From Tubulanus polymorphus (taxonomy: Eukaryota; Nemertea; Palaeonemertea; Tubulaniformes; Tubulanidae), in the NCBI RefSeq assembly GCF_964204645.1, contig NW_027437456.1, forward strand, positions 1 to 64,000: 64,000 nt of DNA, written 5' to 3'. Shown in pieces: positions 1,801-54,718 of the stretch. Each line of letters starts with the position of its first letter. The stretch's first letter is position 1. Below the pieces are notes generated by a model. It was not told the origin of the DNA and made no database searches. It saw only the letters and a program-made list of their open reading frames with translations. A program made the translations under genes and the position numbers.

Positions 1801-3284
<1,484 letters not shown>

Positions 3285-3460
3285 TTGAAAGATGTCACTG
3301 AGGGTCTTGCTGTAGAAAACCGATTAATTTGAACATTTTCTTACATATTTCAATGAAATGTTACTGAAAAAATTTCTCCATTTGAATGTTACTTTCAATT
3401 TGTTACTGATAGGCCTAGCAATTTTCAGAGGTTGGCAGCCCTGGAAACTGTGCGCATAAT
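3285..3460. repeat. Dispersed repeat, second copy inverted at about 37085-37290
   Basis: Shared text includes AATTTGAACATTTTCTT, AATGAAACGTTACAG-like sequence and GCAGCCCTGG/GGCAACCCTG at the end. The other copy lies directly downstream of the truncated Helitron helicase. The family is not recognised; it may be a Helitron tail or an unrelated repeat. Confidence 0.5.
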
Positions 3461-3841
3461 GCCCCCCCCCTTTAAATAAAGCTCGAAATTTAAAGATATA
3501 TTACCTCGATTTCACTCTATAGCTATCTAACTGCAGCACGTCTTTTGTCGTTCTGGGTTTTCGCGTTGTTTTCTATGCATGTATTAGCGAATGTCAATGT
3601 AGTTTTAACACACTCACAAGACCAGCAGGATTACAACAGTCCACAGCATTGCACCCGTGAGCCAGTGTACATATCTATCCAGATTTTGTAGATTTACAGG
3701 ATGCCCATTTTGTTGTGACACCAGTTTATGATTATTGCTTATTACCTGCCAAGGTCCAATGGCCCCAACCATACAAAAATGCCAAGGCATGAGTATAGGC
3801 GCTAACGAAGTTGACGGATATATCATCGTAAACCCTGGGAC

Positions 3842-19947: not shown

Positions 19948-20335
19948 ATATAGCTGCTAAGGGATGAAAATCTTCCGACCATAGTCGGATTTCCGACCTT
20001 TTCTAACATTTTCTTTATTCCTGAGAACAGTCTAAATCACCTCAATCGCTTTGATCACCTAAATCGCGGGCGTCACATTGGAGCGCTCCGTAGTTAGGAG
20101 TGCTCCTTAAGACGGTTTTCGGCAGTTGTTGGCACAACTGTGGAGTCGGAGAAACCAATATGGCGTCTCATTCAAAAAGCGGCTCTAATTCAGGCCCAAA
20201 CTATTAACATTTTTACCAAAAGGAAGTAAGTTTTTTGACTCAAAGTTACTGATTTTTGTTCCCCCAAAAAATTCTTTTTTTGAAAATATTCAGGTATATA
20301 ATAGTCACTAAATTGACAAGTTACTCGGGCACTTG

Positions 20336-20545
20336 CTCGGCCGAGGATAATTGAAGAAGGTATTTGCTCGGCCGAGTGAGTGGTTAAATTCGGCGGTCTA
20401 CTCGGCCGAGCTAACAGTATAGTAATTCCTTTACTCGGCCGAGTAAACGATAGAATTCGGCGGTCCACTCGGCCGAGCATCATTTTAAAAAGTGGTTTAC
20501 TCGATCGAGTGACAGATCCAATTTTGCAATCTCACTCGACCGAGT
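20336..20545. repeat. Phased palindrome array, left end
   Basis: Seven copies of the palindrome CTCGGCCGAG or close variants start at 20336, 20367, 20401, 20434, 20468, 20500 and 20536, giving spacings of 31-36 bp. The sequence between is less conserved (TAAATTCGGCGGT recurs). It mirrors 28672-28849. Likely binding sites for the element's own protein; that role is inference. Confidence 0.85.
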
Positions 20546-21074
20546 AATTGAAATCTACTCACCAAGAGTTAGAATATGTTTTGCGCTATATACGGTGCAT
20601 GGGAAAAACCTATATATTTCGTGACAAAATCAATGATACGATACATTATGTAGGTTGCGCTGTACTACGTTTTGCGTTTTTTTTAACGAATTGACGTGAC
20701 CTATATTTGCCGTTTTAACGTGAGCAAATCGAGACTACTAGTATTTATTCTGAAAACCTTTTAAGAAAACGCAGTGCTTACGGCGAGACGGTGTCGGTCT
20801 TGATAACAGACAGCCACAAAATAGGTCTACTGACGCAACGTTTTTAAAGCTATATTTTCATACAATAATGACCCTCTCGTGACTGGTTTTGAATAGCAGT
20901 TACGTACGAGCAGTTCAGTTCTAATAAATGAATACGGGTTTTAATCATTTCTATCTTTTCTAAAGAAAGGGTCGTATAAATATTAAGCTTCTTATTTTGC
21001 GTGGCCTTTTATTCAATTATCCGGTCCATGTACGTAGCAAATTGTTGCATCATCACAATTTGTATTAAATAACG
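20546..21074. other. No gene seen; interior of the KDZ-type element
   Basis: No reading frame or recognisable motif. It would adjoin 25418 in the element before the hAT insertion. Confidence 0.4.
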
Positions 21075-21103
21075 AACGATTATAATATAATATTATAATC
21101 GTT
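21075..21103. repeat. Perfect palindrome abutting the hAT left end
   Basis: 29 bases with 14-bp arms around one central base, starting AACGATTATAATAT. It ends one base before the hAT terminus at 21105. It could have been the insertion target or a cruciform site. Confidence 0.7.
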
Positions 21104-22232
21104 GCAGGGGCGGATCCAGGGGCATATTTTGACTGCCTTCTAAGAGAAATGAGGGCACCCAAAGGGGGAGCGCGGGGTAACCCCCTCGCCGGTGGGGGTT
21201 TGTGGGGTCTGCCCCAAGAAAATTTTTAATTTTCATGTCCTCAGATGCATTTTCCCAACATCTAGGACATATTTTTCTCAATCCTCACAATCCAAAATAA
21301 AGCCTTAAACACTGATGTAAGCAAAGTCTCCAACCAAAAATCCAAAATGCAGAAAGACATATGTTCAAGATTTATATATATATATATTTATTTTCAGTTT
21401 CATTTTCAGCATTTTTATGGTATGGTTACAACTTACATAATATTACAAGATTGCATAAAGTGAATATTTGTAATACATACTGGAAACAACATTTATGAAA
21501 ATGGCAATTTAAATATTTCCTTATTTAATATTGCATTTTGAGATAATTATCTCAATTATATTATTATATGAGTACATTGCACTAGGATCCTGTTATATAA
21601 TGTACAATGTATGCATAAAATACTATTTTCAATACCGATTTATTGCTTAAATACATATTTGAACTTTATATTTTTCAGTTAAAACACACAGACTCTCATA
21701 AATTTCAAATGAGACATACCCAGATACCAACAAATTGCACCATATTTCCACTATTTTTCAGTTAGCTCACACATTGCAAATGAGACATTTATGAAAGAAA
21801 ATAAAACTACTATATACACTACAAAATAAACATTTATCTCATAAAGTTATCAATATCCAATGTTATTTTTATCAAAATAACTTTAATCTACTGATACTGA
21901 ACTATATTATACTATATAATAATACTGATTGATTCAGCTCTGAATTACAATGCTGAGTAAATCATTCCAGCAAATAAATTCCAAATAATACTTTTCATAA
22001 TCTGACATAATCAACCATATATTTCAAAACATTTTACCACAAACAGCTATTAAAACTTGTAATTTCTGATATTTAACGGTTTATACTGTACACAAAACCA
22101 CAAGCAATAAGAATAAATTCATTAAAAAATTCCCATTAATACATATTTTGTCCTGACAGCAGTAAACCAGTCACAAAGGCAAACAACAATATCTGCTGAA
22201 CACAAAACTCAATCATGTCATGAATACCAGTT

Positions 22233-24465
22233 CTAGTTTATTATATCTAGCAGCGCCATCTTTCTAGGATGCTGACGGGCAAATATATCAATCACTGCCT
22301 GAATGTCAATTTTCTGGGAACTATAGACTGAAAGGAGAGCTAAGCCATTCATGCGGCTTTGATTCATGGTGCTTCGCAAATAAGTTTTGAGACGTCTCAG
22401 AAGTGAGACAGAGCGTTCACACTCACATGATGTAACGGGCATAGTCCCCAGTAACACTAATGCTGCCCTGATATTGGGAAACAAGTCAGCATCTACAATG
22501 GGTAGGAGTTGTGTAAGATGTTTTGGAACTTCTTTCTTGCTTTCAGCTGTCTTTTTCCAGTAAGATTCCCAAAGATGCAGTTCAACATTCAAAGAACTAG
22601 GTGATGGCAGGTCATCAATGTACTCCATACAGAATTCTTTGAATGGCTTCGCCCATTCTTTCTTAGCTAAAACCGTTGCTGGCAACACGGAGAATGCAGA
22701 AAGAATAGTTTCCTGACCACTGAAAAAACGATCATTTATCTCGAAATACAAATGATCCAGTATTGGTATAGCAATAGCACGTTTGAAGTACTGTTCTACT
22801 GACTCAGCTGGGATGTTGCTTCGCTGAGTCTGACGACCACATGTTCGGGGTTTTTGAATGTCAACTTCAAGCAAACTGGCTAAAGCGGTAGCCTGTTGAA
22901 ACCATAATAGGTAGTAGGAGTCGAGATTTGATCGATATTTCTCGATAGTATCACGGACAGCTTTTAAGCACAAATATGCACGATTGGAATCCTGGTTCGC
23001 GTACTGCAACTTTACGGTCAGACTAGTAGTCACACTCAGACATTCACGTGTCAAGATATAAGCGGCAATGAACGGAAAATTGGTAATCGCATGGTAGAGC
23101 CCATTTGCTTTTACCACAGAATCTGGATTCCAATGCTTTTCTGCATTCATTCTTATCAAATCCAGGGTTTCAACGACAGCCACCACTATATCCGAAAACA
23201 CCTCCATTACATCTAGGCGTTGGACCCATCTAGTTTGACAAATGTACAACAGCTTTGAGCGCTTACTTTCAGGGCACAGTACCTTGATCTTTTCAGAGAG
23301 TGCACCTTGTCGTTTTGGGGAATTTGAAAAAAATCTCGACAATTCCCCCAAAGTGTCCATCATGTTTTTCACCTGTGCAACTGATGCAGTTTTCGTGACG
23401 CAGAGATTAAGACGATGAGATGCACAGTGTACATATTTCACTTTGGGATACTGTGTTTTAATGCGAGTTGACGCACCCTTACATACACCAGACATATTTC
23501 CAGCCCCGTCAAAACATTGTCCTCTACAATCTTTCGTGTCAAGGCCAAGGCCTTCAACTGTTTCTATCAATAGTCGGGCTATTTCTTCCCCTGATGTACC
23601 AGAATCACACCAAATAAACTGCAGGAAAGATTCGTGAACTTCACCATTCGAATCAACATATCTCAGAATGAGAGGCATCTGTTCTATGTTGCTGCAATCC
23701 GATGCCTCATCAGCTAAAATTGAGAAGTAACGGTTCATTTTTATGTCATCTATAATTGTTTTTTGAATCCATTCTTTCAAACAGTCAATCAGTTCATTCT
23801 GAATGGTTTTAGAACGATATGTACTTGTTTTTGAACATTTTTTAAAATGTTCCATCAGTGTTGCATCACCAGCATCGCATCGAAACTCCAATAACTTTTG
23901 AAAATTACCAGAATTACTTTCTAAATCCAGATGTTTCGAGTCATCACGGTGTCCACGCAATGGGATATTTTGATTCCCAAGAAATATGACAGTTTTCAAA
24001 ATGGATTTCAGAATTTTGCGATTTTCAGCAATTCGTTTTTGATTTGTTGTACTCGTTAAATTGTTGACTCCAAGGGTTTGGGATTCCATTACACTGGGAA
24101 ACATTTTCTCACAGCAAACTGCATCATGATGTACTTTAGAGTTATCCCTATGGGATGTAAATCTAGAACTTGCGCATGTCCAGTCAATAAAGGGAGTCGA
24201 AACTAAACGTTCTAACTTGGCATCGTTTTTTTCTAATGTGCGACCAAAGAAAACACATGGTCGACAGAAAGCACCTGATAGTTCCTCGGAATATGCCAAC
24301 CAATGGAATTGTTTGAGCCAATCAGCATTAAATGAGCGGTTTTTAAGCCATATATGTCCGTTTTGGGAAATTTATACTTTTCTGTCGGCACCCACAAGTT
24401 ACATAAAGCATTGTACTTTTCAGCATCTTTCATTGTCCTTGTTTTGCCAATTAACAATCCAATAT
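22233..24465 (-). CDS. hAT transposase, ZMYM1/DUF4371-like, main exon
   Basis: The exon starts after an acceptor (TTTTCAG at 24466-24472) and runs to a TAA at 22233, about 740 codons. In order: NIGLLIGK-type start, FPKTDIYG, a TTF-type zinc finger (FCRPCVFFGRT), a DUF4371-like RNase-H core with ILADEASD, CFDGAGNMSG and YVHCASHRLNL, and a C-terminal hAT dimerisation region with SCECERSVSLLRRLKTYLRS. These are the usual landmarks of this branch of hAT and of domesticated ZMYM1/THAP12-like genes. A one-base deletion in an A run near 24333 puts the first 44 codons out of frame with the rest; otherwise the frame is intact, so the copy is young or the shift is an assembly error. Confidence 0.85.
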
Positions 24466-24744
24466 CTGAAAACAAAACAACAGATAAAGTCAAATTCTGT
24501 ACATGCACACATTCAAACAAGCAAAACAGAACTTACAAATATTCCTGGAAAGCTCCATAACACGCAATATTTGGCAACCATTCATTGGCCTATAAAAGTT
24601 ATAACTTAATCCAGGGGCGGATTAAGGGGATACGCCGCAATCTTGCCAAATAATTTCTCCAAATGTTTCTTCAGAATAGATAATGGATCCCCCTGTTGAC
24701 ACATGCAGAGAATTAAATAAGAAAATTATCGCATACAAACGTAC

Positions 24745-25083
24745 TCATCATATTATTATTATTTGTGTCACGATTCTCATAGGCAGACATGATTTGATGA
24801 TGATCATTCGATGAAATCTGGGGTACCGGTACACTATCAGTTGGTACAATTACTGGAGTTTCAATCATCACTGCATTAGATGGTGGTGTAATTGATTCCC
24901 TGTCCATGATGTCAGAACTGGATGTCGTGGTTGTTTCGACGATATCATGTGGGTGGTCACCGGCTTCAGCACTCTCCGTGATGTCAGAACTGGATGTCGT
25001 GGTTGTTTCGACGATATCATGCGGATGGTCACCAGTGGCAGCATTAGAGTGATTAACTGGTTCCGCTGAACCACCATTGAAAA
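24745..25083 (-). CDS. hAT transposase N-terminal exon with internal repeat
   Basis: An upstream exon of the hAT gene. It lies between a TTCTAG acceptor (25084-25089) and a GTACGT donor (24739-24744), and its one-base overhang joins the main exon in frame at NIGLL. It encodes an acidic, serine/threonine-rich segment with two 24-residue direct repeats containing GDHPHDIVETTTTSSSDI (a 72-bp duplication). It would be a disordered tail. The initiator was not located. Confidence 0.5.
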
Positions 25084-25736
25084 CTAGAATACCGTAACTG
25101 CGGACATCGGCAACGGAAAACTGCGGACATCGGCATCGGAAGTTTTGATAACGACTCTCAGTTCATGCGGGTTGTAATGTGCCGGCCTGGGGTTACAGAT
25201 CGTTATCTCCAGTGCCCGACTCCCCCCCCCCCCCCCCCACACGAAAACTCATCGGAAAAGGTTCACTTCGAATCACGATTATAATCTATATGCTACTTTG
25301 CTATTGTAGATTTTTTACTATCACTTAAAAATAAAAAATGCGTTCCTTTAAGAGGGACGCTTGGGATTTTTTGACTGCCTTCCGGAAGGCATGGAAGGCA
25401 CCCTGGATCCGCCCCTGTATTACATTAAAGTTTGTTTCTTTTTCAAAAATCATTAATAGCATGCACTAAAGTTATTGTTCATATGATTCACGAGATATAA
25501 AAGTTACCCCTTCTTTGTTATGATGTTTGAAGGAAGAGTGCAGATGAGTGAAAATGTGTCTACGTTGAATAGTTGTAGTAACCCCTAGTTTGTCATGCAT
25601 GTAGCTTAGTAGGTAGATTTCCCCTAGTTCGCCTGCCGTACGTATTGTCCCTGCGCCCTTATACAATTATATAAATAGCCTACTGCCAGAACATCTTAAA
25701 CATTATTGAGATAAAACAACGAGACACACCAACAAA

Positions 25737-27863
25737 ATGAATTCTGCCAGCCTCAAAGCATGGAAATCCGTCGAAAAAGCGATAAAACGGTATACCGAAA
25801 TATCGAAAGAAGAGGCGGTAGCCGTAGTTATCTACAGGAACGTGAAAACTAAAGATCGAGGAGTTGCGATAACGGGGAGCAATGTTTTAAAAGAGTCGTT
25901 GAAAACACGGATATTGGATATTTGTGATGGAGTTACACCTGACGAGCAACCAGGAATAGTTGAAAGTGAAAACTTGATCACTTCGAATCAGTTTCCAAAT
26001 ATAACTGAGGTATACGGCAGAAGTTTAAATTCTCTGCCTAGTGATGACGCCAGAGTCCTGCTCACTAAATAAGTTTATTTGAGCAAAGTTTTAAGTGGAA
26101 TGAGTTCTACCAGCCCACACTGGGGAGATGAATCATGTCGTGTTCAGTGGTGGCCTGAAAACCTACCGTGGAGGAATCCCCGATGTGATATTCGTCCCGT
26201 CGAGGCGCGCTCGGAACCTTACGCAGATGTTGTAAGGAGAATTTTTCAGATCGGCCTATGTTTTTCATAAGTGTGAAAACTTGACAGGTACGCAAAAATA
26301 AATTTAATTCTAACCACTAATAAAATTGTTCTAAAGCAAAAATCAAGCAATTAAGAGTATAATGCAACCGCAAAAATGTCCTTTAAGGTAGAAAAAATGG
26401 CCTTGTCTATCATTTCATCACTAATACAGTAAATTTACCATAAAAAATACCAAAGAACAAACTTGGGAATTGTGTTAATAAATTGCACACTAACCATCGA
26501 AGAGAATTCATTAGGTGACCATGAGCGGGCCTAGAATTTTGGGCATTAACTAATTTTGCCTTTTGAAAACATGTGAACTCAAGCATGATACGTCAAATTT
26601 AAGGTTTTAAATGAATAATACAAATAATTAAATCAAAGTAGAGCCATTATTTGTTATCAAATTTTACAGATTTTCCGGAAATGTGAGCTACTGGTTTGAG
26701 ATAATAAAAACATATGGGTTGCGTCTATTCTTTTTTGAGAGAATTTATCTTTGTTGTTATAAAGATAAATCCTCTCAAACAGTATTATTTTATTTTCAGG
26801 AGACCCTGTACATGGTACTGAAGAAGTAGTCAATCAACCTGCAGCAACCACCTATATTACTGAATCAGGTAGTCTAAAATGAAAAATGAATTCAAGTTAA
26901 TACCCTTAATAATTGAACTAAATTGATTAGCCATCAGAAATATTGTTAACCTGTTACAAATTGTAGTGTTGTTCACTTGTAAATTGTGAACACCAGCCCA
27001 TTATACCTTAAATGTCAGTTTTCATGCATCAACACTTTTTATATCCAGTTTCTAGCATCGGTGAACTCGAGCAGCCAAACATTTAATATTTCTTAATCAA
27101 ATTGTTCATTAATTTGTGATTGCTTCGTTTCTTATATTGTAGAAGCTTTAGGTTCATCTCTACCAGCATTTGTCCGAGTCAGTGATCATGAATGCTATCG
27201 AGAATGGAGGAATTTCAGATGTCATTGCATTCAACATCACTGGATACCCTGGTATGTACATGTTTAACAATTATTTCATTTATTCATTAGGCCACACCAG
27301 AAGAAAACCGTTTCTCAGCCCGACCAACCCGATATTTAGTCGTTTCAAATAATCATTTCAAATTTGTTTTCTATAGAAAAAAATCCCTACCTACCTACCT
27401 ACCAATTTCTGTGATTGCCCCGCCTGAGAAAAGTTTTTTTCTTATGTGGCCTTACATGTAGCCTCATCCAATATCATTGACTGCATGAAAAAGGGCCAAA
27501 TAATAACATTATTCCTTTTCCGTCCACATGATGAAGTTTTTTTACCTCTTCCTCTGGAAGATTTGATTTTTGTGGGCAGACAATCTAATTAATGAAAAAG
27601 CCTCATTGTTATGATTATGCATGTACTTTAATTGTGAATGTCATACCATATCAATTTCAGATTTAGATGTCTCGGCACTCCACTCTACTGAAATGTCAGA
27701 AGAAACGGGCAATAAGACGTATGTCTTGGAAGAGAAGATGGAGAGGACCAAAAGGAAGAGGAAATTGACAGAAAAAAAAGCAGGATTACAGCCAGAAGAA
27801 AAAACGAATTCACTAAACCAAATTATTATCATTAACCATATTATTATTAATCATTTATTTTAA
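25737..27863 (+). CDS. NRF1-like DNA-binding-domain gene, multi-exon, mutated
   Basis: It starts at an ATG in strong context (ACAAAATGA). Exon 1 is 25737-26287. Its first 111 codons are unrecognised; after an in-frame TAA at 26070-26072 the same frame reads PHWGDESCRVQWWPENLPW and RNPRCDIRPVEA. The spacing of WG.ESC...WWPE..PW.N.R.D.R matches the core of animal NRF1 (nuclear respiratory factor 1), which binds GCGCATGCGC palindromes. A one-base shift near 26250 leads to HKCENLTG and a GTACGC donor. Further exons: 26800-26868 (joins in frame), about 27143-27251 (frame unresolved), 27661-27863 (ends after a KRKRKLTEKK nuclear-signal-like patch). Two lesions make this copy a probable pseudogene. 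Confidence 0.65.
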
Positions 27864-27927
27864 TAAAATTCAATTTATAGATTCAGATATCAAATTTATT
27901 ATACTTTCGTTCTTTTATCTCGGTTTT

Positions 27928-28640
27928 TTATTGCGAGGAACAAAGAAAGTGACGCATAAAGGTCTCAGGCTTCATATATGCTAACTGTGATTCTAACTGT
28001 TCGTTGACTTGGCTGTTGATATTTGTGACATCCACATTCGCTTTGTACAAGTCGAGAGAATATCCATCGCACCTGTAATTATAGTAGATTCAACATATCA
28101 AAAATGTTTCAATACAGTATGAACTCTTTACAATGATACTGCTTTAACCACAAAGGATTGATACTCCCAAACTAAAATGAAAAGACGTATTCAATTTATT
28201 TAGACTCCACTCTGGAATTGTGGGGGACCAAAAATGTGTGTTTATATGAGGATACTATAAATGGCGGAAAAGTGACACCAACTTTATATATCTGTACGAA
28301 TCAGGCGCAGTAACATAATATTTACCCTGTGTGATTTTTCCAGTGTAAGCGGTCATCACAGAACATTGTATTTCTGAAGAATTCTGGTTCTCTACAAAAT
28401 AATCAAAACAAGAAAGATGATTCACTCGATTTTTCATATCTATGAATAAGTTTCTTACGGACAATTTGTCAACTGAAGTGAAAACACTTACCTATTTAAA
28501 CAGTACTGATGTAGTTTACAAGCATTGTCGTACACGATAAGGTTAGGAGGTTTCGAAAACCTTGTCTTGAAGATGCTGAATGGGTGCTTCGGCGATTCGT
28601 GGCACCCACGGACATTTTCGAACCAATTGTTTGCTCGACT
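27928..28640 (-). pseudogene. KDZ-family transposase, C-terminal exons only
   Basis: Three minus-strand exons: about 28640-28492, 28391-28326 and 28072-27928, with donors GTAAGT and GTAAAT and acceptors TTTTGTAG and ATTACAG; all junctions keep the frame. They read CHESPKHPFSIFKTRFSKPP then IVYDNACKLHQYCLNR, EPEFFRNTMFCDDRLHWKNH, GCDGYSLDLYKANVD, NSQVNEQLESQL and a stop. These are the characteristic C-terminal motifs of Kyakuja-Dileera-Zisupton (KDZ) transposases (aspartate in IVYDN, the HW/DR.H segment, the CS.GYSLD region). The N-terminal zinc clusters and first catalytic residues are gone. The first exon runs into the palindromic terminal array. Confidence 0.8.
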
Positions 28641-28671
28641 GACAGGGTCAGAACGAACGAACTACTGATAT

Positions 28672-28849
28672 ATTGGCCGAGTGTGACTGCAGAATTTAAT
28701 AAGTCACTCGGCCGAGTAGATTGGCGAATTCTATCGTTTACTCGGCCGAGTAAAGAACTTAAGTTTTACTGAGCTCGGCCGAGTGGATCGTCGAATTCGA
28801 ACAATCACTCGGCCGAGTAAACAACTTTCTGACATAATGCTCGGTCGAG
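28672..28849. repeat. Phased palindrome array, right end (inverted copy)
   Basis: Six palindromes CTCGGCCGAG or variants start at 28672, 28707, 28741, 28774, 28808 and 28840; spacings are 32-35 bp. It is the inverted counterpart of 20336-20545; the text continues as AAATGCCCGGGTAACTTGTC, the reverse of the left end. Confidence 0.85.
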
Positions 28850-28905
28850 CAAATGCCCGGGTAACTTGTCAATTGGGACCGTATTTTATAGCTCAAATAT
28901 TTTCA

Positions 28906-32250: not shown

Positions 32251-32329
32251 GCCATGCGTAAAAAAACACGTATATGCAAATGAGGGCGACATGATGACAA
32301 AACGACAAAACTAAAATAACGCGACAAAA

Positions 32330-33235
32330 CAATAATTTTGGTTTTGTCGCCCGCGACAATTCATTATTTTGGTTTCATCGCCCGCGACAATTCATTATTT
32401 TGGTTTTATCGCCAGCGACAATTCATTATTTTGGTTTTATCGCCCGCAACAATTCATTAGTTTGGTTTTATCGCCCGCGACAATTCATTATTTTGGTTTT
32501 GTCGCACGCGACAATTCTTGATTTTGGTTTTATCGCCCGCGACATTTTGGTTTTATCACCAACGACAATTCATTATTTTGGTTTTATCGCCCGCGACAAT
32601 TCATTATTTTGGTTTTATCGCCCGCGACAATTCATTAGTTTGGTTTTGTCGCCCACGACAATTCAATATTTTGGTTTTGTCCCACGCGACAATTCAATAT
32701 TTTGGTTTTATCGCCCGCGACAATTCATTTTTTTGGTTTTGTCGCCCGCGACAATTCAATATTTTGGTTTTATCGCCGCAACAATTCATTATTTTGGTTT
32801 TATCGCCCGCGACAATTTTCTTTCTTTTTGTCGCGGTTTTATCGCCTGCGACACTTCAATATTTTGGTTTTATCGCCTGCAACAATTCATTATTTTGGTT
32901 TTATCGCCCGCGACAATTTTTATTTTGTCGGGGTTTGATCGCACGCGACAATTCATTATTTTGGTTTTATCGCCCGCAACAATTCATTATTTTGGTTTTG
33001 TCGCCCGCGACAATTCAAGATTTTGGTTTTTCTGCCGCGACAATTCATTTTTTGGATTTGTCGCCCGCGACAATACAATATTTTGGTTTTATCGCCAGCG
33101 ACAATTCATTATTTTGGTTTTATCGCCCGCGACAATTCATTATTTTGGTTTTATCGCCCGCGACAATTTTTTTTCTTTTTGTTGCGGTTTTAGCGCCTGC
33201 GACACTTCAATATTTTGGTTTTATCACTGGCGTCC
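32330..33235. repeat. 31-bp minisatellite, about 28 units
   Basis: Tandem units TTTTGGTTTTATCGCCCGCG plus ACAATTCATTA, exact period 31 bp in most units. Because 31 is not a multiple of three, the array cycles through all three frames, and no frame of the consensus has a stop. This creates two overlapping plus-strand frames of more than 300 codons that repeat the same 31-residue block (IHYFGFIARDNS, FWFYRPRQF, IILVLSPAT). These are by-products of the repeat; there is no start context, splice signal or domain. Confidence 0.92.
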
Positions 33236-33237
33236 TC

Positions 33238-33412
33238 ATCTTTCAGCAACGCCAGTCACATGGATTCGTACGTGTTCTACTTTCTGCGACGCGACCAACC
33301 GACGCGCTCTTGCCACTGGCAGAAACTAGTCGCACACAATCGTATTGCAAGCGACTTGCATCGAAACTTGCGATGCAACGCGAGGATCGCATCGTGTCAC
33401 AAGAACAACCTA
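33238..33412. repeat. Dispersed repeat with GCGAC motifs, partner at 62260-62450
   Basis: Shares CAGCAACGCCAGTCACA, TGTTCTACTTTCTGCG and ACTTGCATCGAAACTTGCGA with 62265-62450. Rich in GCGAC/GTCGC. A non-autonomous DNA element is likely. Confidence 0.65.
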
Positions 33413-33459
33413 CGTCTGGCTTTAAGTTACTGTGGAGCACCAGAAATATCTTTTTTTTC

Positions 33460-33970
33460 GTTCAAAAGACCTTTCGCTTGAAAATTCTTTCGTCGGAACA
33501 AAATTTATTTCGTTCGAACCAATAATATTCTATACAATTGAACCAATTTGAAAAAATCGTTAGAACAAAGTTGAACAAACTTTTTTTTGTCCAAACGAAA
33601 GGTTTTTTGTTCGAACAATCATTCAATTGAACAGAATCGTTTTAATTTGAACAGAATTTTCTTGTCAGAACATTAAGTTTTTCGTTCGAACAAGTATATT
33701 GAAAAAAGTTTTTTCTCCGAACCGAAAGTATTAAGTATTTCGTTCAATCGAACAGAATTGTTTTCATTCAAACATTCGTTCGAAAAAAATTGTTTTCGCT
33801 CAACCAATTTTTTTTTCATTTCAACAATAACATAGCTTTTTATTCGAACACATTTTTGTCAGAATGAAGAAAATTTTTGGTTCATGCAAAAAGCGTATTG
33901 TTCGATCAAACAGAATTATTTTGATTGGAACAAGATTTTCTTGTTGGAACATTAAGTTTTTTGGTCGAAC
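33460..33970. repeat. Degenerate GTTCGAACAA-type repeats
   Basis: Many loosely spaced copies of TTCGTTCGAACAA, TTGAACAGAATTTTCTTG and similar text. Resembles 1225-1400. Non-coding, adjacent to a reverse-transcriptase fragment in both cases. Confidence 0.6.
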
Positions 33971-39147: not shown

Positions 39148-40440
39148 CTATTTTGCTCTAGCTGGGCTCATTGCATTCATAGCTGCATCATGTTGTATTT
39201 TCTGAATTTCTTCATCTGGTTCATTGCTTGTTGGAGGGGCTTCATATTTCATTTGAGTTAGAAATGTTTGTAGGGATGGATTTCTGGGGAAATTGAACCT
39301 GCATACAGTACCTTTTTTACGACATGTCTTAGAATGTCTTTTACTATGCATTTGGACACTGGTGGCAACCTCATGCAATTCAGGATCTTTGGATTCTTCA
39401 GGCAATCTGCAGGTTATGTATCTATCTACAAACTCAGTGACATCAACGTCATCATCGATTCCTGACTTAGGTGCATCTTTCACCCATATCAAAGCATGAA
39501 CATGTGGGCTGCCGCGCATCTGGAATTCTACACGATAAAAGTAGTCCTGTATTTCACCAATCGGTTGTGCAGGGGACTTGATAACAGTGTTGAGGAACGT
39601 ACGAAATCTATGATCAAACATCCTGGCTGCAGTTACTGGGTTTCGTCTCAATATACCACATTTCACGGACCATGACATGTCTCTCACAGGCTTATCACAA
39701 CCATCAACTCCAATTATAGCCTCTAAATGGTCCTCCCATCTCATTTCAGCTGCAGAGAATGACACAAAGAATGTTGGCACACCTAATTGTCTTACCATAG
39801 CCAGCAAGTCTTTTTGAGCAGCTTCCCAGAACGGAGGTGTTCCTCTGATAGGTTTTAAAAACTTATAACCGTCATTATGTTTCAACAATTCGTTCATATT
39901 TTCAATGTTTTTCAAAGTATTCAAGTCAATATTCAAACTTTTCTTACCATCTTTCACTCCTTTCCGCAATGCAATTGAGACATTTGAGTTGACCTGGTTG
40001 ATTTCAGACAAACACTGTGCATAAATTATGTAATCCGTGTTTCTCGAGAATCTAGGGTCGGCATTCATTAAACGTGTGTGTAAGTAGCGTGATAAAGTAA
40101 TCCTGTGTCCTCGAATATCATGATATGTAAATCTACCTGTCGGAAAGAGAGTGGGGAAACACCTGGCCTCCTCATTCTCAGTACCAGTCAAAATGTTTAT
40201 TGGGCTATTATCTTCAGCAGGAGCCACACACAAAATGTCGTCGAAATGTGCGTCAAGAATTTCCTGGCCGATATTAATTGGTTGCAGGCAGGATTTCATG
40301 TACATTCCATGCAGATTTTCAGCATCAGTTTCTTCCTGGTAGTTGACATCATTTTGTCCTTGTGCTGTGGAATTATTGTCAAGATTGGGCAGTTCTTCAT
40401 TTTCAATTGTTTCTGTATCTAATATCTCATCCTCAAGGGA
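39148..40440 (-). pseudogene. Helitron Rep (HUH) domain
   Basis: Helitron_like_N domain. CFPTLFPTGRF and IYAQCLSEINQVNS are the usual start; RGSPHVHALIWV carries the paired metal-binding histidines (HxH) of HUH endonucleases; CRFNFPRNP follows. Rolling-circle Helitron transposition uses this domain to nick and join single strands. The frame is open from 40440 to 39151 and is separated from the upstream cysteine-rich segment only by a TGA at 40441-40443. Confidence 0.9.
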
Positions 40441-41237: not shown

Positions 41238-41885
41238 CTATCTATACTGTGGGTTATTCACAATATGTTGATGGTCCAAATTAGTTTTGTATTTGTCAAT
41301 GCTGTAGCATTTGACCCTTTCTTGATGCTGAATGTCCTTTCGATATTTCCCAATACTGTATGTCTTAACGTGGTCTCGATGCTCAATGTCGTTCCGATAT
41401 TTCTCAATACTGTATGTCTTAACTTGGTCTCGATGCTCAGTGTCGTTCTGATATTTCTCAATACTGCATGTCTTAACTTGGTTTCGATGCTCAGTGTCCT
41501 TTCGATATTTCTCAATAATGTATGTCTTAACTTGGTCTCGATGCTCAGTGTCGTTCTGATATTTCACAATACTGTATGTCTTTACTTGGTCTCGATGCTC
41601 AGTGTCATACTGATATTTTGCAAAACTGCATTTCCTGACTTGTTCTCGATGCTGAGAGTCACTTTTATATTTCTGTATACTGTACGCTTTCACCTGATTT
41701 CGAAATACATCATCCTGTTTATAGTTCATAGCGGCTTTCCTTTTCAGATTATTACAATAGTTACGATCATCGTGGTATTTCTTAACAGTATTTAATTTAA
41801 TCTGCTGGCGGAATTCCAAACTGTTGCTGTACTTCATTTTTTTTCCCTGTGTTTTGGTTTTGGCGATAAGATTCATCGTTCTCAT
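41238..41885 (-). pseudogene. Helitron polyprotein repeat tract (18-residue units)
   Basis: About ten units of 18 residues of the type KY.ND.EHRDQVKTYSIE, 54 bp each, nearly identical at DNA level between about 41330 and 41620. They are highly charged and likely helical. A frameshift near 41855 separates the tract from the OTU part, and a stop at 41238 ends it. Tandem near-identity suggests recent unit expansion. Role unknown; possibly a flexible or DNA-binding linker. Confidence 0.75.
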
Positions 41886-43089
41886 ATTTTAGAGATGCAT
41901 ACGTTATCATCTTGTTGCGATACAGTTTATCCTGCCGATAGTGCTGATTATCGTAACGCCTTTTGACTGCTTTCCTGTTCCTGATTTGATCTTCACGTTT
42001 GTTATTGGTGGCATAATTTATTGAATTATACTCGTTCCCGCACCATGCGCATATTTTATCATATACATCAGAACAGTTTACGCACACAACAACCTCATAG
42101 TGCATACCACTACTGTTTCTAAGATAAATATTACCATTGGATTCATATTGATGTTTAACAGTGGCTAAAACTGAACCTGAAAATTGTTGCCATTGGTCAT
42201 CTATATGCGTATAGATATCTATATGCAGTAAATCAGCTGTGGCCAATGTTTCAACTTCAGTCGCCCATGTCTGTACGTATTTCAACCGGGATGCTTCAAT
42301 ATATTGATCTACAGTAATATCTGGATTTCTCAAATGCGGTTGAAACCTCTTTGCGTTGTGTTTCATGTGGTTTACTACTTTTGTACGTATGACCCTGTGA
42401 TAGTTTTCAGTTCCACAGATAGAATAAGAGATAGCTCTGAAAAAACAGTTACCATCACCTTTTATCTTATGGGTACTGCATGGTGAGCCGAGCGGTCCAG
42501 TATATGCAGGCATACAGTCATATCCTAGTTCAGCCATTGGAATACCTACAACAGATCGTGCTGGTATATCTAGAATAGAGCATAATGACAAACACTGCAC
42601 TTTTTCTAGAGGTCTGTATACTAGTGAGGTGTGATGTATGGAGCTACCCACAACTATAACATCATCATCAAAGACTTCATTTAAATGGGACGGTTTTGGT
42701 CGATTGAGGCTGCGTGTGGTTAATGTTTCTCCTGTAAGATCCTTTTGATCACAGCAGTTTATATCAACACCTGTTATTTCATATTGCATCGGTTCAATTA
42801 AATTCATAGAGGCGGTAAGTCTGTGACAATGTTTTTCTAATTCATTTAAACTTCTATGACTTACTATCACGGCAAATCCATCAGCAGTCATCATTCCATT
42901 TGAGTCACGTGAATGAGAGTCGAATACCCAGTACACACCATCCTGATTCAAAACACAAAATGTATTACCAGCAAATGTAACAAAGCAAGCATCATATTCA
43001 TCTAGTATTGTGTGTAAACATTCAGACAATTCCATAATTACACCAAACTTTCCGGCTTTCTTATGCAGAAGGCAGTTTGAATAGGCCAC
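41797..43089 (-). pseudogene. Helitron N-terminal protease-like and OTU domains
   Basis: Residues about 1-120 (SECLHTILDEYDACFV, VYWVFDSHSRDSNGM, DGFAVIV) resemble the papain-fold deubiquitinase-like segment seen at the start of some animal Helitron and virus proteins; the expected N-terminal cysteine part is missing. Residues about 200-340 form an OTU cysteine protease (GDGNCFFRAISYSICG with catalytic Asp/Cys, and HYEVVV with the histidine). A C-x2-C pair and the start of the charged repeats follow. OTU domains are known in animal Helitrons/Helentrons. The upstream frame continues across a MITE (43094-43249), reading KYPLTS before an earlier stop. Confidence 0.8.
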
Positions 43090-43093
43090 TGAA

Positions 43094-43249
43094 CAGTGTT
43101 TTCAATAAGAGCCAGGTCCCAGACCTGTCTGTTGTTTGTAAAGGACCTGCCTGTTTTTCAAACCAGCTTTCATTTCAGGGACTGTGACAAATGGGACCCT
43201 CCTCTTTTACAAAGGGACCTGGCTTGTTAATTTCTTAATGAAAACACTA
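43094..43249. mobile_element. 156-bp MITE inserted in the Helitron gene
   Basis: Inverted ends CAGTGTTTTCAATAAGAGCC and, read from the right, TAGTGTTTTCATTAAGAAAT, then CAGGTCCC. CTGAA is present on both sides (43089-43093, 43250-43254), a likely 5-bp target duplication. Joining the flanks lengthens the Helitron frame by eleven codons. Confidence 0.75.
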
Positions 43250-50989: not shown

Positions 50990-53819
50990 ATTCAAAGATG
51001 ATGATAAAATTACTCCAGTATGCCATAATATGTCCACAGTAAGTCATTCAGAATATACACACATTGACCTCAAGAAATCTCAAGGCCCTACTAGAAACAG
51101 CCCTGTAGTAGATGGAAAATGTTTTAACAAGGTAAGTGACTTGATAAGAGGGAAACCAATGATTCATCATCGATACAGGTACAATAAGCATACATTGGAA
51201 TTGAAAGTCACTTTGAAAACTGGAAAGCGGTTGCATAAGACATTCTTATGTACAGATGCTGGTAATGATGATAAAGTTTCAATGGATAAAATCAATGAGT
51301 TTTTGAACAATGGGGAGGCTTGTAATTGGATTCTAGAATCAAATAAAATTCAGTGGTAAGAAGATGGTGTATTAGAAACTGGTGTAGAAACCAAAAATTA
51401 TTTCAGTAAATTTACATTTGATATCACCAAAAAAGTAAAAATGTTTGACAATAAAAATGTGCGTGCTGTTTATCCAGGGAATCAAACAGCTATGAAGGTA
51501 TCGGTTACAGAAAAGGCTGGATGGGGGAAAACTCATAGATTTGATGAAAAATATGAGTTCATATCAGGAATCAATGAAAAACCTGATGGAAAAATTGTTG
51601 AATTGATCATAAAATGTTCATCGAAATCAAATGATTGTCGCTCCGCATGTGGTGAATTACTTAGTAGTTTAGACAGATCAACAAAAGCTATGAACTGTAC
51701 TGCATGTGGTCTAAACTTAGAATTGCCTAATAACATTTGTGAACACTGTGCATCTACGTCGAGTCAGAAATGGATTTTAGATGTTAATGGTAGAAAACTT
51801 TGTAGTACTTGCTACAATTATAAATTGAGAACAAACAGGGATCGGCCAGCCCAGATAAGATTAAATAATCAATCAAAACGCTTTCATCACCCTCATCTAG
51901 TTTGCGATTGGAAATTAAAGCTTGTCTTATATGGTGATAACCTTTCAATGTGGAAGGTATATAAACATTGCGATAATGATAAATATCATAAGAATGTTCC
52001 TGTACAATTAAATAAGCGTCCATCCCTGGCAACCAGAGATAAATGGGATCAACAACGAATTGTACTTAAAGCTACTCCAAAACAAGTTCTTTCTGCTACA
52101 AACAATCAACAGAAAGTCCATTTGTCAAATGAAAATGAGGAAAGCTCCTCATCAAATCATACATTAAAGCAAGTAAGTGATCGATTGCGTTATATCGATA
52201 GGGAGGCTGTTAGAAAAAGTATGCGAAGCCAAGATGATATCCCTTTGATTGGCTCAGATTGGCGCAATACTGAAAAACTATTAGAGACTGAAGTAGAATC
52301 GGTGATTTTATTTCAAAGAGGAGATCGCAGTTTTAAAAGAAATTATCATTTTGTATTAGCTCCTGAAAAAAATCTTTCATATTTATCAAAGTTTGGGCGT
52401 TCGGTTATAGGAATGGATGTTAAACATGATTTCAATGCAGTTAGATTTAAAACAAGCTTTATTACATTTACTGATAGTTTAAATGAAGGTCGTATAGCAG
52501 CAGCTTCAGTGAGCAATTCCGATGATGCAGATTCGCATGCTCTGTCGCTTCAGATTTTATGTGCTAATACACCTTGTCAAAGAAAAGAATGTCAACATCC
52601 TAGAAAGTTCTATATATACAATGATGGCTGTGGTTTTTTCTCAATCCGTCCATGTTCTTTCATTCAAGCCCTTTCTCCTCTGGTTCAACATGACAAAGAT
52701 ACTGCCCTTAAAAGGGGAGCATCATTAAATGGTTTGCTGTCTGTACTGTGTAATTTTCATGCTTTACAGTGAATTCGACGTACTTTGAATGACAATTCAC
52801 AATTGAAATTGCTTATCAGGCCATTAGAGAAAGGATTTAAATGTGTTATGCGCTCATGGGATGAACCTTCTCGCAATATCCTTGCTAAAGAATTTCTTAA
52901 ATTTATAAAGAATAATATCCCTTCAAATTTACTAAGCGATGACTCAAAAAAAAAATTTGATAAATTATCTTGAGACAAATAGGTTTTCATCCGAAACATG
53001 GTCAGACATATTTAATGCTGCGCCATTATATCGTACCATAGCTACTGAACGTCACAATCCCCTTCTTATGACAGACAATGTTACTGAACGAAAATTCAAA
53101 GATATAGATTCAACGTATTTAAGCAATCATCTCAACCGTTTGATTTCAATTTTTGTAGTAAAAATACTCCGTTATGTATTTGATAATGATTTAAAAGCGG
53201 CCAATTTAAATTACCAAAAATCTTCAGAGAAGATTCGAACTATACGAAAGAAGACATAAGTGCGAGAAACCTGTGATAGAGCACTTGAATTAGTAAAGGG
53301 TGGATTTTTGGTTGCGTGTGATGGAGATGGTTGGGGTGTTTTTGAAAGTCCTCGTAGAAAGTCGAATAGAAATAAATGCGGGTCTGAAGATCTATCAGAT
53401 GAGCCGCTGCCTGATCAATTTTTGAAAGTGTCAGAATGTTAGAAGATAGATTACCATCAAGTACACCTATAAGTAGTCAGTTTCTCTCCTCCTGTGATTT
53501 TAATCAGATCTCTAATGAACACAGTTATGATATGATCAGCAAATGTCGCAGTTATGTTGGAGACTTAGATTCACTTGCTGCGAGACTTTATTTTAAGTAT
53601 TTATTCACCTTGGTTCCGGATGCAATACAAGAGAAAATAGGCGATAATTCTCATATAGTTAATCTTCAACTAGGTATTTGTAGCAGCGAAGCATTTATTA
53701 TGAAGGGTCAACCTTACTTCTGCAAACATCTATTTGCCCTAATGGCTCACAACAAGAAACTAAACAGTGTTGAAGCAATCATTTTTTTCTCAGAGTTTAA
53801 AAAAAATCATATACTTTGA
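50990..53819 (+). pseudogene. MULE-like transposase with GATA-type finger and SWIM-like motif
   Basis: Continues the composite gene. Residues after 51660: CEHCASTSSQKW to LCSTC, with spacing C-x2-C-x17-C-x2-C, a GATA-type finger. Near 52400: SVIGMDVKHDFNAVRFKTSF, resembling the first catalytic block of Mutator-like (MULE) transposases, then LLSVLCNFHALQ, like the C.WHV block. Near 53680: SEAFIMKGQPYFCKHLFAL, SWIM-like. In-frame stops: TAA 51357-51359, TGA 52770-52772, TAA 53257-53259. Frameshifts: near 52972 and 53436. Between lesions the frame is long and clean, so decay is recent. The MULE assignment rests on motifs read by eye; other DDE families are possible. Confidence 0.65.
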
Positions 53820-53883: not shown

Positions 53884-54063
53884 ATAAATTAGGAAAAACG
53901 GTACTCGATGAAAAGATTGACTTGTCACAAAATGTAATTAGTGAACCAAAATAAACCAGCTGAAAGTGAATTGCAAGTGAATCATAATAAAGAAAACCCC
54001 GACTTAGGTATTGATAATGAAGATGATATTGGTAATGATGACTCGACTGTAGATAAAAAAAAC

Positions 54064-54718
54064 ATGTGAAGTTACTTCAGACCTAAAAGAAACAAATAAA
54101 AGTGTTCCTGTCAACACAAATAAGACAGTTCTATGTTCGTTATGCGTAAAAAATAATTCTGAATCTCCTTATATTTGTTCAAGTCGTCCGGAGCTTGATA
54201 AACATATATCTGTTGTCCATGACCTAAAACTTATCATGTGCTCAATATGTTGGGCATCGGGTGTTACTTTATCTTTTCCTAGTATACCACATTTAGAAAA
54301 ACATGTTAAACTTGTACATAAATTCAATAGAGTTAAAAGAGTTAAATACTCAAAGACTAGAAATAAGAATGTCACAGAAAAAATATCAGAGGTAAATAAA
54401 TGTAACAATGAAGTCGATTTGGAGAAATTAACAAACAATATTGGTTCCCCTGGTATTCGAAATATTGCTAAGTTAAAACTAAAAGATGTCTGTAAAGATA
54501 AGAAAGAGAAAAGTCCATCTGAGATTATGGCAGAAACAAAAATACAAACACAATGGAGGTGTCCTGTATGCAAACAGAATTGTAGCTCTAACCCAAGTAA
54601 ACATCAATCAATTGGGTGCGATACATGTGACCAATGGTTTCACTGGAAATATGTTGGTTTGACTGATGAACCATTGACTGAGAAATGGTTTTGTCTTTGC
54701 TGTGACCCGAACATGTAA
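54064..54718 (+). CDS. C2H2-like fingers and PHD finger, composite gene C terminus
   Basis: Open frame from about 54064 to the TAA at 54716-54718. Two C2H2-like fingers (LCSLCVKNN to HISVVH; MCSICWASG to HVKLVH) are followed by a lysine-rich linker and a PHD finger: WRCPVCKQNC, IGCDTCDQWFHWKYVGL, EKWFCLCC (C4-H-C3). PHD fingers read histone tails; in a transposon one could guide insertion, but that is inference. An acidic frame at 53955-54069 leads in with a one-base shift near 54065. No other lesions here. Confidence 0.7.

Follow-up and report, generated by a model that had tools for sequence, protein, structure and literature searches.

A dispersed transposon family carrying a KDZ-type transposase gene and an NRF1-like gene between terminal arrays of palindromes

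A transposon family dispersed in this genome carries two convergent genes, one for an NRF1-like protein and one for a KDZ-type transposase, and its termini, duplications and terminal arrays, the convergent gene pair, and the homology of both proteins are all established here. A transcription-factor domain that is well known thus stands beside a transposase in a transposon family that has diversified, and the arrays of this family supply a ready sequence-level prediction of the target of the NRF1-like protein. Two questions become testable: whether an NRF1-type dimer recognises the ends of a transposon, and in which direction NRF1 has moved between host and transposon. Annotators should also be warned that an NRF1-like gene copy in a genome of this kind can belong to a transposon.

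The family was recognised through one copy in the window, by which we mean the whole 64-kb stretch of DNA analysed. The initial annotation had placed KDZ motifs and an NRF1-like core in one unit bounded by inverted arrays, a claim that held for the arrays and both homologies, while its span of 20281-28905 is corrected here. The unit is a DNA transposon with exact ends at 20291 and 28894, lying between two AAATATT copies (Table 1), and its ends are mutually inverted over 133 nt at 78%. Between them lie the NRF1-like gene on the plus strand and remnants of the KDZ-type transposase gene, whose motifs occupy 27905-28640 on the minus strand. This copy is dead, as the NRF1-like exon has an in-frame stop and no 5' part was found for the KDZ gene; only three KDZ exons were found, none of them upstream of the 28491..28601 exon.

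Table 1. Features of the element in the window (positions in the window)
Feature	Position	Strand	Remarks
TSD, left copy, AAATATT (7 bp)	20284..20290	.	identical to 28895-28901
Left terminus, 5'-CAGGTATATAATAG...	20291..20330	+	
Left array, seven CTCGGCCGAG-type palindromes	20336..20544	.	sites at 20336, 20367, 20401, 20434, 20468, 20500, 20535
Nested hAT transposon (DUF4371 type), ORF 22233-24371	21105..25417	-	foreign to the KDZ/NRF1 element
NRF1-like gene, first coding exon	25737..26267	+	one in-frame stop; broken in window copy
Possible NRF1-like 3' exon, basic tail	27663..27790	+	similar in L001; inferred
KDZ-like exon remnant, NSQxNEQ motif (last catalytic-type motif)	27905..28071	-	
KDZ-like exon, REPEFF...DRLHWKNHTG	28325..28393	-	
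KDZ-like exon, HESPKHPF...IVYDNACKLHQYCLNR	28491..28601	-	junction about 28601
Right array of palindromes	28673..28849	.	sites at 28673 (degenerate), 28707, 28741, 28774, 28808, 28840
Right terminus, ...TTTTATAGCTC-3'	28850..28894	+	common to subfamilies B, C, D, G
TSD, right copy, AAATATT (7 bp)	28895..28901	.	identical to 20284-20290

The long open reading frame inside the element was considered as the KDZ gene and rejected, its Pfam matches being those of hAT transposons (PF14291, 1.2e-21; PF05699, 9.4e-7). This nested hAT element has perfect 17-bp terminal repeats at 21105-21121 and 25401-25417, and a sister copy that lacks the insert (L023) shows the empty site. The left hAT junction has a 29-bp palindrome (21075-21103) in place of the plain 8-bp duplication expected there. 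Elsewhere in the window, 39151-40440 and 41800-43101 belong to a Helitron (Helitron_like_N, 6.3e-29, with an OTU protease domain upstream on the same strand, 8.8e-10). Two further ORFs, 51360-52772 and 54053-54718, gave weak GATA and PHD finger matches under the Pfam cut-offs and perhaps represent another mobile element, and the long overlapping ORFs at 32298-33525 repeat a single short peptide (about ATIHYFGFIARDNS) and probably reflect tandemly repeated DNA.

A whole-genome search (267.8 Mb) with the Pfam NRF1 profile gave 21 matches, five of which are exons of the host NRF1 gene, and a search with the window protein gave three further loci. By DNA alignment of the fetched NRF1-like loci, subfamilies were assigned as follows: A, the window copy, L001, L002, and the C7 copy L019/L020; B, L003 and L004; C, L005, L006, and L007; D, L010, L012, and L014; E, L011, L013, and L017; F, L008; and G, L009, L015, and L016. 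The fragment at L018 could be placed in no subfamily. DNA matches between subfamilies are short. When 36 stretches were tested with NRF1-like and KDZ-like proteins, 20 were found to contain NRF1-like sequence, and KDZ-like exons are present at 14 of these, convergent and on the opposite strand in 14/14 and spanning the six subfamilies A-F. At the other six NRF1-like loci (L009, L011, L013, L015, L016, and L018) no KDZ-like exon was found. KDZ-like sequence without NRF1-like sequence occurs at L022 and L027, and the ordinary KDZ copies L048 and L050 gave a weak KDZ-like match near 8e-5.

The 36 stretches were mostly picked by NRF1 or end matches, and a genome-wide search with a single KDZ exon served as an independent test. 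It gave 13 matches at 12 loci, which is a lower bound, as copies without that exon, such as the one in the window, cannot show. NRF1-like sequence accompanies all 12, in convergent orientation within 10 kb at 11 of them and as a fragment at the twelfth. By both counts, then, the check for co-occurrence of the two genes was passed. No NRF1-like genome match lies within 100 kb of any of 13 ordinary KDZ loci, and three of these (L048-L050) have no NRF1-like sequence in the 9.9 kb read at each, the ends of which were not fully reached. In these same three ordinary copies, a long internal-repeat stretch adjoins the transposase exon.

Both ends could be read in 11 elements: the window copy, L002, L003+34, L004+35, L006+36, L007+37, L010+38, L012+39, L015, L016, and L022. 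Their 7-bp duplications are exact in ten, and that of L004+35 agrees at six of seven bases. The left terminus is CAGGTATA or a near form of it in subfamilies A, B, C, D, E, and G and CAGATATA in F, and the right terminus across elements is TATAGCTC. The sequence examined revealed no right end for E, F, or L009, and that of L014 lies outside it. The two-gene reading would have been refuted had intact copies never contained both genes; in fact, the first eight of the 11 have sequence of both, while L015 and L016 carry the NRF1-like gene only and L022 a KDZ remnant only. The last, a 1.16-kb derivative, still has site-bearing sequence at each end and is flanked by an exact duplication of its own. 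Subfamily G has the common left terminus, exact 7-bp duplications (L015, L016), and many TGCGC half-sites as in NRF1; in its three copies (L009, L015, and L016) the NRF1-like gene and the end sites were found and no KDZ exon was. Beside the NRF1-like copy at L013 there is an inverted repeat of ~1.3 kb (1-1295 against 2312-3603 of that locus) with 99.5% identity.

The NRF1-like gene is a member of the PF10491 family, as demonstrated by profile matches and base-contact residues. Its first coding exon encodes a dimerisation-like part followed, at about 26073-26267, by a DNA-binding part. The WWPE segment (65 aa), whose failure to match NRF1 profiles would have been the other ground for refutation, matches Pfam PF10491 (Nrf1_DNA-bind) at 1.8e-8, over the cut-off, and the window exon translated through its stop does so at 1.2e-8. 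Sister copies gave stronger matches, with 1.4e-13 for the C2 exon (positions 47-208 of 213) and 5.4e-12 for a second one, and the B1 exon matches the DNA-binding part of the solved human NRF1 structure 8k3d at 2e-7. In human NRF1 the bases are contacted by R206, N242, and R244 (PMC10810270), and these residues are largely kept in the element proteins: of 14 aligned sequences, 13 have the R206 equivalent, D2 alone having lost it. The A2 row stops before the other two positions, and the remaining 13 all keep the N242 equivalent and have at the R244 position either R (11) or K (two, E2 and F1). That the protein binds GCGC-type palindromes as a dimer is an inference from the site pattern. A fold model of the window exon alone was poor (mean pLDDT 51); its predicted helix-strand-strand-helix start resembles the NRF1 dimerisation core described in PMC10810270. 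A structure search with this model returned nothing, NRF1 included, at E <= 0.001.

The transposase belongs to the KDZ superfamily, as shown by PF18758 matches in two of three exon-joined models together with a profile comparison, the Pfam scores themselves being marginal. The D and E models match PF18758 at 3.4e-6 and 1.8e-6, barely over the cut-off (27.3 and 28.3 bits; cut-off 26.6), and the copy B model gave no match at E up to 1; trimmed, copy B matched only with an E limit of 10 (3/3 members). The comparison by hhalign with two ordinary KDZ proteins encoded in this genome gave a probability of 94.6 and an E of 6.9e-8 over 143 columns, which include the YDxACxLH, VD..H...H, and NT..EQ motifs. 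The KDZ-associated cysteine cluster CxC4 (PF18717) scored 5.7e-4 and 0.025 in exon-joined models, both under the cut-off. Nine single exon stretches, taken from the window copy, L001, and L002, all failed to match Pfam KDZ, and a genome-wide Pfam KDZ search listed none of the 12 KDZ-exon loci.

The terminal arrays are regular. The seven sites of the left array are spaced by 31, 34, 33, 34, 32, and 35 bp, and the six of the right array, one of them degenerate, by 34, 34, 33, 34, and 32 bp. Allowing at most one mismatch, CTCGGCCGAG has 12 occurrences in the window, 11 inside the two arrays, against a chance expectation of 0.20 in 64 kb and with 0/100 shuffles reaching 12. The palindrome closest to the left end reads GCTC-GGCC-GAGC in A (L001 and L002; the window copy has G as the last base), ACTC-GCGC-GAGC in B, ACGC-GGCC-GAGC in C, GCTC-AT-GAGC in D (GCTC-GT-GAGC in D2), GCGC-GAC-GAGC in F, and ACGC-GATC-GCGT in G; at the left end of E no such palindrome was found, only repeated TGCTCA. 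The pattern RCKC-N2-4-GMGY fits the near-end palindromes of six of the seven subfamilies, with the window copy deviating at the last base, though it was derived from the same data and no comparison with chance was made. End sites were found in every subfamily whose ends were read. GCTC tops the 4-mers enriched at the ends of C3 and D1 and at the left end of E1; it ranks sixth in the window element, seventh in L002, and fifth in B1, and falls outside the top six at the left end of G.

These near-end palindromes appear close to the best site of NRF1, GCGC-N2-GCGC, a likeness inferred from sequence alone and without binding data. Human NRF1 tolerates half-sites 0-7 bp apart with binding 2-14-fold weaker than at 2 bp, and with a 4-bp palindromic spacer the value is 0.91 uM compared with 0.31 uM (PMC10810270). 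The element sites nevertheless differ from the NRF1 target in several respects. NRF1 prefers a central AT, which the A, B, C, and G sites lack; the G that R244 contacts through a main-chain group is replaced by T; and the outer base is often changed from G to A. B, F, and G do carry half-sites of the TGCGC type. Most half-sites of A, the window copy included, are ACTC and so lack the G expected to be contacted by the N242 equivalent. Human NRF1 has only weak binding to the site in its double GCTC form, ATGCtCATGaGCAT (PMC10810270), so the element proteins of A, C, D, and E must have changed in specificity.

We consider it likely that in this KDZ-kind two-gene transposon, of which the window has a dead copy, an NRF1-like dimer acts as an end-binding accessory protein; dimerisation, binding, pairing of the ends, and control of the genes are all inferred. 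The gene reading inward from the right end encodes a multi-exon transposase with cysteine-rich stretches, and the gene reading inward from the left end encodes a protein with dimerisation-like and DNA-binding parts. According to this proposal, a dimer of the latter would bind the arrayed RCKC half-sites at both ends and thereby mark or pair the ends for the transposase. It may also control the two inward-reading genes, because each array sits upstream of one of them. The G copies, with the NRF1-like gene and end sites and no KDZ exon found, fit a part that serves the ends. The suggestion of the initial annotation that the encoded protein may bind the arrays remains an inference, as no binding or transposition data stand behind it, and it is possible that the cysteine clusters of the KDZ protein bind the arrays instead.

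Three rival explanations were weighed. The one that survives best, although it is unlikely, holds that the NRF1-like protein is merely the transcription factor of the element, with the arrays serving only as promoter elements through which both genes are switched on or off, and with no role in a transposition complex. The position of each array upstream of one gene and the fact that NRF1 itself is a transcription factor (PMC10810270) speak for it. Against it, end sites occur in every subfamily with ends read, and L022 keeps site-bearing ends and an exact duplication of its own with nothing but a KDZ remnant, so that the ends seem needed for movement, beyond gene control. The second rival, which we regard as very unlikely, is that the KDZ cysteine clusters bind the arrays and the NRF1-like gene is a passenger that acts, for example, on host genes. 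In its favour, recognition of DNA sequences or of chromatin proteins has been hypothesised as a role of the zinc-chelating KDZ cluster CxC7 (PMC12062965, citing Iyer et al. 2014), and transposons of the same group carry passengers such as TET/JBP genes (PMC12730594). However, the end sites look like the NRF1 site, and the three G copies, in which no KDZ exon was found, retain the NRF1-like gene and the end sites, contrary to what would be predicted for a dispensable passenger. A chance neighbourhood of an NRF1 pseudogene and a KDZ remnant in one repeat, which the two broken genes of the window copy alone might suggest, is all but excluded by the recurrence of the convergent pair at 14 loci in six subfamilies with only short DNA matches between them.

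Evidence of selection on the two genes is mixed. For the KDZ gene, dS and dN are 0.031 and 0.027 for B1-B2, 0.021 and 0.022 for D1-D2, and 0.064 and 0.006 for C2-C3 (3/6 exons); for the NRF1-like gene they are 0.046 and 0.016 for B1-B2, and C2-C3 shows six nonsynonymous and no synonymous changes. Within subfamilies dN/dS is therefore not clearly low, with KDZ C2-C3 and NRF1 B1-B2 in favour of selection. That both proteins once mattered is better indicated by their conservation across subfamilies with only short DNA matches between them. Gene trees of six subfamilies concur in joining D with E (100/99 and 100/100), the sole firmly supported branch of the KDZ tree; the rest is unresolved, and full co-descent of the two genes beyond D with E is not shown by the trees.

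The origin of the NRF1-like gene is less clear. One host NRF1 gene was found; it matches human NRF1 at 4.5e-100, which suggests an animal genome, and lies on a very long branch (2.55) of an unrooted tree. Three introns, on our reading of the splice sites, interrupt the corresponding part of the host gene, and all three are absent from the first coding exon of the element. Because of this absence, and because the proteins are far apart, a recent capture of the host gene by the transposon is unlikely. Neither capture by the transposon nor domestication by the host can be excluded, and so the idea that the element could show how NRF1-like factors spread or arose is unresolved. A bolder reading, which we think improbable, is that NRF1/EWG/P3A2 and the transposon proteins share one origin in mobile DNA, NRF1 being a KDZ end-binding accessory protein that was domesticated early in animal evolution and carried its GC-rich palindromic target along. 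Scans of viral contigs with NRF1-like and KDZ-like alignments confirmed no relative.

The initial annotation knew of no described pairing of KDZ and NRF1, and we found no paper to the contrary. In the literature searched, none joins KDZ or Zisupton with NRF1 and none links NRF1 or its Pfam name with transposons, and the three hits for P3A2 with a transposable element are unrelated by their titles; a mention in Iyer et al. 2014 or in Repbase is not excluded. A KDZ element with a second gene is already known in kind, that gene being TET/JBP in fungal KDZ elements (PMC12730594) and NRF1-like here, a pairing apparently undescribed in the literature searched.

Among known systems, the KDZ transposons (Kyakuja, Dileera, and Zisupton) resemble the family in their transposase, as judged by PF18758 and the comparison with ordinary KDZ proteins. 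Two fungal Kyakuja families have a 7-bp duplication and a 5' CA (PMC12730594), and both features recur in the window family. On the other hand, the Kyakuja yardstick of CA..TG without terminal inverted repeats (PMC12730594) is not met, since the element ends 3' in ..GCTC and has inverted repeats in A-D; its right end is ...TATAGCTC rather than ...TG, and its ends bear arrays of RCKC sites. The 8-bp duplications of Zisupton and of one Dileera element (PMC12730594) differ from the 7 bp, exact in 10/11, seen here. With NRF1/EWG/P3A2 the second protein shares the order of dimerisation-like and DNA-binding parts, the WWP core, and three largely kept contact positions. It differs in being encoded inside a transposon, far from the host gene and without the three host introns, and the identity of one element protein to six others is 24-54%. 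A system that works alike is En/Spm (CACTA), in which the transposase TnpD is accompanied by TnpA, a DNA-binding protein for many short subterminal motifs. The proteins and termini of En/Spm are unrelated to those of the window family, and it is by analogy that TnpA beside TnpD would illustrate the role proposed for the NRF1-like protein beside the KDZ transposase.
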